A stretch of DNA of 64,000 nt, taken from NCBI RefSeq assembly GCF_013004105.1, contig NZ_CP053085.1, positions 4,030,001-4,094,000 of the forward strand. Direction: 5' to 3'. The translations under genes were made by a program, and so were the position numbers. Position 1 is the first letter of the stretch. Every line of letters begins with the position of its first letter. Source of the stretch: Gemmatimonas groenlandica. Lineage in GTDB: Bacteria > Gemmatimonadota > Gemmatimonadetes > Gemmatimonadales > Gemmatimonadaceae. Positions 39,590-40,803 of this stretch are shown here, piece by piece. Under the pieces are notes generated by a model. That model was not told where the DNA came from. It was given only the letters and a program-made list of their open reading frames with translations, and ran no database searches.

Positions 39590-39698
39590 GCCGAACCTTG
39601 CGTTGCTGTTGACAACGGCTTCAAGGTAGCGGCCTTGCTCCCTGCGGTCGCTGGCCACAACCTATTGAGGGCCGTTGCAACAGAACGCAGCGTTAGCA
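39590..39698 (+). repeat. attC site, family E (109 bp)
   Basis: Left GCCGAAC, right GTTAGCA. Inner arms TTGCGTTGCTGTTGACAACGG and CCGTTGCAACAGAACGCA pair. Shares its arms with the site at 54582. An IS110-family element begins within a few bases of its right end. Confidence 0.85.
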
Positions 39699-40803
39699 AC
39701 TGTCTTGAAAGTCAAGCGACTACGAGTATCGCTGTCGCGGCTTTCGCGCTCCACGTGGTTTTGGTTCGCATCATCGTATTGAGGATGGTGAGCAGTTTCC
39801 GCATACACGCGACGAGCGCGAGCTTCTTGGGCTTTCCGGCGGCGACCAATCGCAGGTAGAACTCGCGAATGACCGTGTTGCGACGGCTAGCGACGAGGGC
39901 CGCCATGTACAGCACACCACGCACCGTCGCGCGACCGCCTTGCACGAATCGACGACCCCGCATGGTGCCGGAGTCTCGACTCAGTGGTGCAACGCCGACG
40001 AGCTTCGCAATGGCGCGACGGGACAAGCGACCGAGTTCTGGTAGGTCCGCGAGGAGCGTCCGTGACAGCACGGGGCCGACACCGGGCACACTGCGCAGGA
40101 GCTCATCGCGCTCACGCCAGACGGGACTCTGCCGCACCATCTCGCCAAGATCCGTGTCCGTCGAGCGCAACTCGCGCTCAAGGAATGTGATGTGCGACTT
40201 GAGACTTTTGCGCACCTGCTTTTTGCCCGTGCCGAACACTTGGCCCACGCGATTGCGCTCCGCCTGCAGCATCTCCAACAGCTGCCGCCGTCGCGTAAGC
40301 AGCGCATCCAGCTCGTGCGCGGCGGCGTCCGGAATGAGGCGCACTTCCGGTCGGACGACGTCGGCGAAGCGCGCGAGGATGTCGGCGTCAATGCGATCTG
40401 TTTTCGCCAGCTGCCCCGTCGCCTTCGCAAAGTCCCGCACCTGGCGTGGATTCACCACCACCACGGGCAGTGACGCCGCGGCGAGCGCGGCAACGGCGAG
40501 CAGCTCGTATCCGCCGGTCGCCTCCAGCACGATCAACTGCGGTCTGTTCGAGGCGACGCGCTGCACTAACGTACGCACGCCCCGTTCATCGTTCTCCACG
40601 GTGAATCGCTCTGCACTCGGCAGCACGCTGATCACCAACTCGGCTTTCGCCACATCGATGCCGACAAACATCTGCCCCTCCGACCGCTCAGGAAGCGTCG
40701 TCCGCGCCCGTCCTTGTAAGAATTCGGGCTCGACGCGGTGGCCGGCCCCCGCAACTGTTCGGGCTCTCACGACGAATGATCAGGTACGCCGCTCTGGCTA
40801 ACG
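39699..40803 (-). mobile_element. IS110-family insertion sequence next to an attC
   Basis: Holds one transposase gene on the minus strand. Ends are approximate: IS110 elements have no clear terminal repeats. The left edge falls just after the attC core; near the right edge GGCTAACGC (40795-40803) is the inverse of the GCGTTAGC in the neighbouring attC. The non-coding stretch upstream of the transposase (40672-40803) is where IS110-group elements carry their target-guiding (bridge/seek) RNA. Confidence 0.65.
39712..40671 (-). CDS. IS110-family transposase (DEDD-Ser)
   Basis: 319 residues from the ATG at 40669-40671; earlier in-frame ATG at 40770 lacks homologous sequence. The RuvC-like DEDD N-domain starts [16 protein letters not shown] and has [16 protein letters not shown]. 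The Tnp_20 C-domain has [23 protein letters not shown] and the catalytic Ser region [20 protein letters not shown]. Full length, no frameshift, so possibly active. It lies antisense to the cassettes. Confidence 0.93.

Follow-up and report, generated by a model that had tools for sequence, protein, structure and literature searches.

An IS110-type insertion sequence with a predicted bridge RNA matching the R' box of integron attC sites in Gemmatimonas groenlandica

The 64,000-nucleotide stretch of Gemmatimonas groenlandica DNA analyzed here (the window; G000:C1:4030001-4094000, within a host genome of 5.18 Mb in a single contig) contains an integron in which one attC is occupied by a complete IS110-type element on the minus strand (39697-40884; 1188 bp, counting one core dinucleotide). 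Judging from sequence comparisons, this element is very probably an insertion sequence guided by RNA, and its bridge RNA is programmed to recognize the R' box of attC sites in integrons. RNA-guided targeting of attC had been proposed in a first-pass annotation of this DNA, and the proposal is now supported by the match of both predicted guides to the R' box, by guide-target covariation among relatives, by compensatory changes in the predicted fold, and by further copies situated at GCGTTAG.

The element and the integron that it occupies

The first-pass annotation was right to place an IS110-family element beside an attC, since Pfam and NCBIfam models identify a transposase gene directly after the GCGTTAG (R') end of the site. 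This gene (39712-40671, minus strand) encodes a transposase/recombinase of 319 aa that matches PF01548 (3e-26) and PF02371 (6e-17) and exceeds the cut-off for NF033542, the NCBIfam model 'IS110 family RNA-guided transposase'. Its best solved relatives are ISCro4 (9t56) and IS621 (8wt6), with which it aligns end to end (E about 1e-33 to 1e-34), and all catalytic residues are kept: the DEDD/Ser residues D6, E50, D92, D95 and S234 align to those of IS621. The nearest named transposases found are those of ISKpn42, ISEc32 and ISMno7, IS110-like elements carried on plasmids, which share about 49-51% identity with it.

The boundaries proposed in that annotation, 39590-40803, need correction: the former position is the attC R'', and the latter falls 81 bp short of the end indicated by an identical copy and by relatives. 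This second copy (G000:C1:4465861-4467048), 396 kb from the first and 100% identical over 1197 bp, fixes the ends at 39697 and 40884; the outer flanks of the two full copies are unrelated to each other, and exact identity extends to 39690-40886 because GCGTTAG and AC are common to both targets. Read on the transposase strand, the left junction is GCCGT-CT-TGTATC and the right junction CAGTTG-CT-AACGC, with the common dinucleotide CT (AG on the plus strand) at 39695-39696 for the RE junction and at 40883-40884 for the LE junction, and the AC that follows the LE core completes the R' box GTTAGAC. Taking out the element joins the flanks as GCGTTAGACGG in copy 1 and as GCGTTAGACCG in copy 2, both of which contain a canonical attC R' box (GTTRRRY).

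The same genome holds a left-end remnant (L009, 93% identical) in another attC and a truncated relative (L010, 82% identical); the second copy and the remnant, like the window copy, are at GCGTTAG integron sites. Copies at unrelated targets, the observation that the first-pass annotation had named as the one to speak against attC targeting, were looked for and not found for the window element. A search of the genus for an orthologous empty cassette did not recover the whole cassette, only the attC (up to 91% identical), and its place was taken by an empty homologue inside the window: the left flank of copy 2 is 78% identical to positions 34776-34946, which read GGCGTTAGACC where the element is inserted in copy 2. 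By arm pairing the flank of copy 2 is weak as an attC (p=0.15), and it may be attI-like. Across the 5.18 Mb of the genome there are 11 sites with the motif GYCTAACGC, three of them within the window integron, and 187 with the same pattern read backwards, so that the attC R' motif is strongly under-represented in this genome.

The surrounding array has the parts expected of an integron: an integrase gene, intI (33604-34674, plus strand; TIGR02249, E=1.9e-132, 441 bits where the cut-off is 265), attC sites with R''/L''/L'/R' and extrahelical bases, and GCGTTAG ends repeated along the array (34940, 35721, 39690, 41700, 42296, 44279 and 44943). The cassettes are downstream of intI on the same strand, an unusual layout in that intI is not divergent from them. 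Directly after intI is a segment of 171 bp without an obvious ORF (34776-34946, plus strand), which ends in the empty target described above and recurs at L008 5691-5861 and L009 2615-2784 (78% and 73% identical), at both places away from complete integron integrase genes. Its window and L008 versions start and finish with GCGTTAG, and the segment is possibly an attI that was duplicated or a cassette with no ORF. The occupied attC (39590-39696, plus strand; R'' GCCGAAC at 39590-39596, R' GCGTTAG up to 39696) closes a cassette with an ORF at 37805-39526, and the element is inserted in the opposite orientation. Its arms TGCGTT-CTGTTG-CAACGG pair with TGCGTTGCTGTTGACAACGG, leaving two extrahelical bases (p=0.005 against shuffles). 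Beyond the element, the next cassette and its attC span 40916-41700 (plus strand), with an ORF at 40916-41548 and a GCGTTAG end at 41700.

Predicted bridge RNA and junction promoter

The element has 211 nt of non-coding DNA between the left core and the ATG, and 15 bp between the stop codon and the right core. A bridge RNA is predicted in the longer region (40683-40870, minus strand) by covariance model R1 with 108 bits. Folding gives a stem, then an internal loop with the hairpin GGUGGCAAACACC (40807-40819, minus strand) as its cap, and a second stem-loop. When 29 such RNAs are aligned, they share a fold in which 12 of 23 pairs show double-sided compensation. The guides, all on the minus strand, are named here after Durrant et al. 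2024 (PMC11208160). In the target-binding loop, the left target guide GCCGUCU (40821-40827) is the same as the left half of the target, GCCGTCT, and the right target guide GCGUUAG (40798-40804) is complementary to CTAACGC of the attC R'. In the donor loop, the left donor guide ACAGUUGC (40751-40758) has the same sequence as the RE end ACAGTTGC, and the right donor guide region UUACAAG (40713-40719, placed by the consensus donor loop) is complementary to CTTGTA of LE. From 5' to 3' the order is thus left target, right target, left donor, right donor, and the two target guides with their common CT core spell GCCGTCTAACGC, the R' box of the occupied attC.

The first-pass annotation noted that the inverse core sequence GGCTAACGC recurs at the other edge of the element; it is indeed present, at 40796-40804, not at the edge but 80 bp within the element. 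It reads GCGUUAGCC on the transposase strand and is the right target guide of the predicted RNA, so that GGCTAACGC is the DNA complement of a guide. Its recurrence exceeds chance, in that the non-coding region of the window element scores 14/15 against the target of that element (p about 0.002 in a comparison with shuffles) and cross-element permutations never reproduce the match (0/20,000); at the target of copy 2, the left target guide is imperfect (6/7). The stretch 40672-40803, to which that annotation had pointed for a guide, misses the left guide and the outer stem, because the RNA spans about 40683-40870.

A promoter is predicted at the junction of the circularized element, where a -35-like TTGACT (39710-39715, minus strand) would stand 17 bp from a -10-like TATCTA (40875-40880, minus strand). 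Of 45 circle junctions, 35 have a TTGA at a distance of 12-25 nt ahead of the core, mostly as TTGACW-17-TATCTW, and junction promoters have been described for ISEc11 and ISEc21 (PMC11187229).

Guides and targets among relatives

We sampled 52 relatives from Gemmatimonadota, Nitrospirota, Methylomirabilota, Myxococcota, Chloroflexota, Pseudomonadota, Cyanobacteriota and other phyla, and for the 24 elements with both junctions, the non-coding region of each was scored against its own target and against all others. Own targets average 12.7/15 and those of other elements 9.7, and the observed mean was not attained in any of 20,000 permutations. Relatives at unrelated targets have guides that match those targets instead, as do two sister elements in the host genome itself (L011 and L012), which carry a different guide. 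Within the order, the RNA covariance model finds matches in 44 of 288 genomes, and beyond it in additional families of the phylum, and CGUUAG is present in the right guide of 28 of the 85 bridge RNAs read, these 28 being spread over about 20 genomes of the order. Enrichment of full-length intI in genomes with attC-type guides was not seen (about 7 of 20, counted by eye, versus 131 of 288, with many of the assemblies fragmented). Since a left guide with YCT at its end is common to many non-attC relatives, it has no diagnostic value. One Nitrospira locus (L054) holds two closely related copies (2303-3452 and 3523-4669) arranged head to tail, both in one orientation and with about 70 bp between them.

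Flanks were also searched for attC arms by free arm alignment tested against shuffles. Long arms with two extrahelical bases are seen at the window copy, L009, L017 and L018 (each p=0.005) and at L122 (p=0.01); the bases are spaced 6 nt in the first four and 5 nt in L122. L024 shows both gaps (p=0.075) and L044 one (p about 0.06-0.1), p values for these two ranging over 0.055-0.11 in all, and the left target guide of L044 matches poorly. The arm away from the element is the one that carries the extrahelical bases, which puts the element at R' in every case, a placement that agrees with the direction of the cassettes in the window. In the same test, relatives with other right guides mostly have flanks without comparable arms, and no clear arms adjoin seven loci with an attC-type guide or a CTAAC junction (L015, L021, L033, L042, L043, L111 and L118).

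These last loci bear on what the element recognizes. A landing site in attC, at R' throughout and with a single orientation wherever arms are readable, is what would be expected if the element read the folded single-stranded hairpin, as the integrase does, and not double-stranded R' DNA; we nevertheless consider this improbable, since the match of the guides, on both strands, covers only the R' box and a few bases past it, several relatives are at the same linear sequence without attC arms, and the solved IS110 mechanism uses a double-stranded target (PMC11208160). Because several relatives occupy CTAAC sites where arms are not clear, what is read is probably the R' sequence and not the folded attC, and the comparison suggests that the linear R' sequence would be enough as a target. 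Elements or remnants at L033, L042 (G041) and L021 (G004) share the same GTTGCTAACG junction without recognizable attC arms, and these are possible off-attC insertions at look-alike sequences.

Even less probable is that the element is of the IS1111-attC type with a downstream guide RNA, the kind to which the first-pass annotation had likened it. The kind of target is the same, the attC of integron cassettes; the published attC elements ISKpn4, ISPst6 and ISPa25 are IS1111 (PMC11187229); and insertion at one attC end, a mark of that group, is found here as well (at the R' end in the window copy, L009, L017, L018 and L122). However, the likeness ends there: the long non-coding region is upstream and only 15 bp follow the stop codon, no subterminal inverted repeat of 11-13 bp is present (the best imperfect repeat is 7/8), the bottom-strand guide is 5' of the top-strand guide, which is the IS110 order, and the nearest solved relatives are ISCro4 and IS621. 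The upstream position of the non-coding region and the IS110 guide order thus set the element apart from the IS1111-attC kind, and IS1111 membership was rejected on the missing inverted repeat and the upstream region. What is found instead are the features of bridge-RNA IS110 elements: a DEDD RuvC-like domain and a Transposase_20 domain with the catalytic serine, preceded by a non-coding region; an RNA, predicted from sequence, with target and donor loops and the left guide 5' of the right; and target-loop guides that match the insertion site and covary among relatives. Least probable of all is that insertion at attC is coincidental, the element targeting another sequence or none: some relatives with the same right guide are at CTAAC sites without clear arms, but GCGTTAG is the site of both full copies and of one remnant in the genome, the target motif is very rare (11 sites), and the guides match the motif and covary across the family, in contradiction to chance by the permutation test.

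For an IS110-type element guided to the R' box, transposition would begin with an excised circle joining RE to LE, thereby forming the TTGACT-17-TATCTA promoter that would transcribe both the RNA and the transposase. In the resulting recombinase-RNA complex, the donor loop would pair with the circle junction and the target loop with double-stranded R' DNA, and by homology to IS621 strand exchange would take place at the CT core between double-stranded DNA and a circular donor. The integron integrase cuts at G^TTAG. Because the insertion is a few bases beyond this cut, the upstream attC would keep GTTAG and most of the site, and the element would form the front part of the next cassette; from position, the element and that cassette might be movable together by the integrase.

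Retargeting and comparison with known systems

In the transposase tree, attC-type elements are scattered in separate groups among relatives with other guides, and a single clade of attC-type transposases is rejected (AU p = 8e-5, in a test that left out the mis-translated rows L113 and L146 and further rows that were long or partial). Targets have therefore changed repeatedly, in a pattern that may reflect several gains, or gain and loss. In three elements, L025, L147 and L148, the right guide spells the attC core in reverse orientation. L025 (G055), with the right guide UAACAAG (GGUAACAAG), is at an attC with strong arms (p=0.005). L147 and L148 (G159:C3), with the right guide CUAACGAG, are each about 7 kb from an integrase gene; their left flanks show no significant attC arms, and the term attC-like for their site is therefore based only on the guide, the CGTTAGG junction and an intI close by. 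Reverse-orientation guides are possibly an independent solution to attC targeting.

The distribution of guides suggests that RNA-guided elements have more than once become specialized to life inside integrons. We tentatively extend this to a broader reading, to which we give a little less than an even chance: that one IS110 lineage, sampled mainly in Gemmatimonadota, may have had its guides retargeted to attC more than once and in two registers (R' and reversed), and that its elements would ride in cassette arrays where the integrase can carry them as parts of cassettes, an RNA-guided transposon thus parasitizing a second recombination system. Sister elements with attC and non-attC guides are found in one family, and both types in one genome, which makes natural target acquisition by RNA-guided elements directly testable. 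A natural attC-aimed guide is likewise a starting point for asking whether an integrase moves an RNA-guided element in a cassette.

The IS1111-attC group has reportedly also been treated by Tetu and Holmes (2008) and by Post and Hall (2009). In a search of the literature on IS110, bridge RNA and attC, an incomplete collection that leaves novelty unproven, we found no description of an IS110-type attC element, and attC targeting by insertion sequences is otherwise described there only for the IS1111 group. IS621 (PMC11208160) shares with the window element an upstream non-coding region, a two-loop RNA, the guide order, the CT core and a DEDD + Ser recombinase, but it targets E. coli REP elements whereas the window element targets the attC R' box; the two transposases are related only at E about 3e-33, and the right guide of the window element pairs over 7 nt. 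ISEc21 (Siddiquee et al. 2024, PMC11187229) similarly has an upstream RNA with the bottom-strand match 5' of the top-strand match, and its circle junction forms a promoter, a feature predicted for the window element; in contrast, its target is a conserved region in IS3-family transposase genes, and its transposase has 358 aa as opposed to 319 aa. ISKpn4, ISPst6 and ISPa25 are of the IS1111 type, with the RNA downstream of the gene, the opposite guide order and subterminal inverted repeats (PMC11187229). The IS1111-attC group resembles the window element in RNA-guided, specific insertion at one attC end, whereas none of these three features of the group is found in the window element. Read from its sequence, the window element is an IS110-type counterpart of the IS1111-type attC-targeting elements, the same landing site having been reached by another RNA architecture, apparently more than once.
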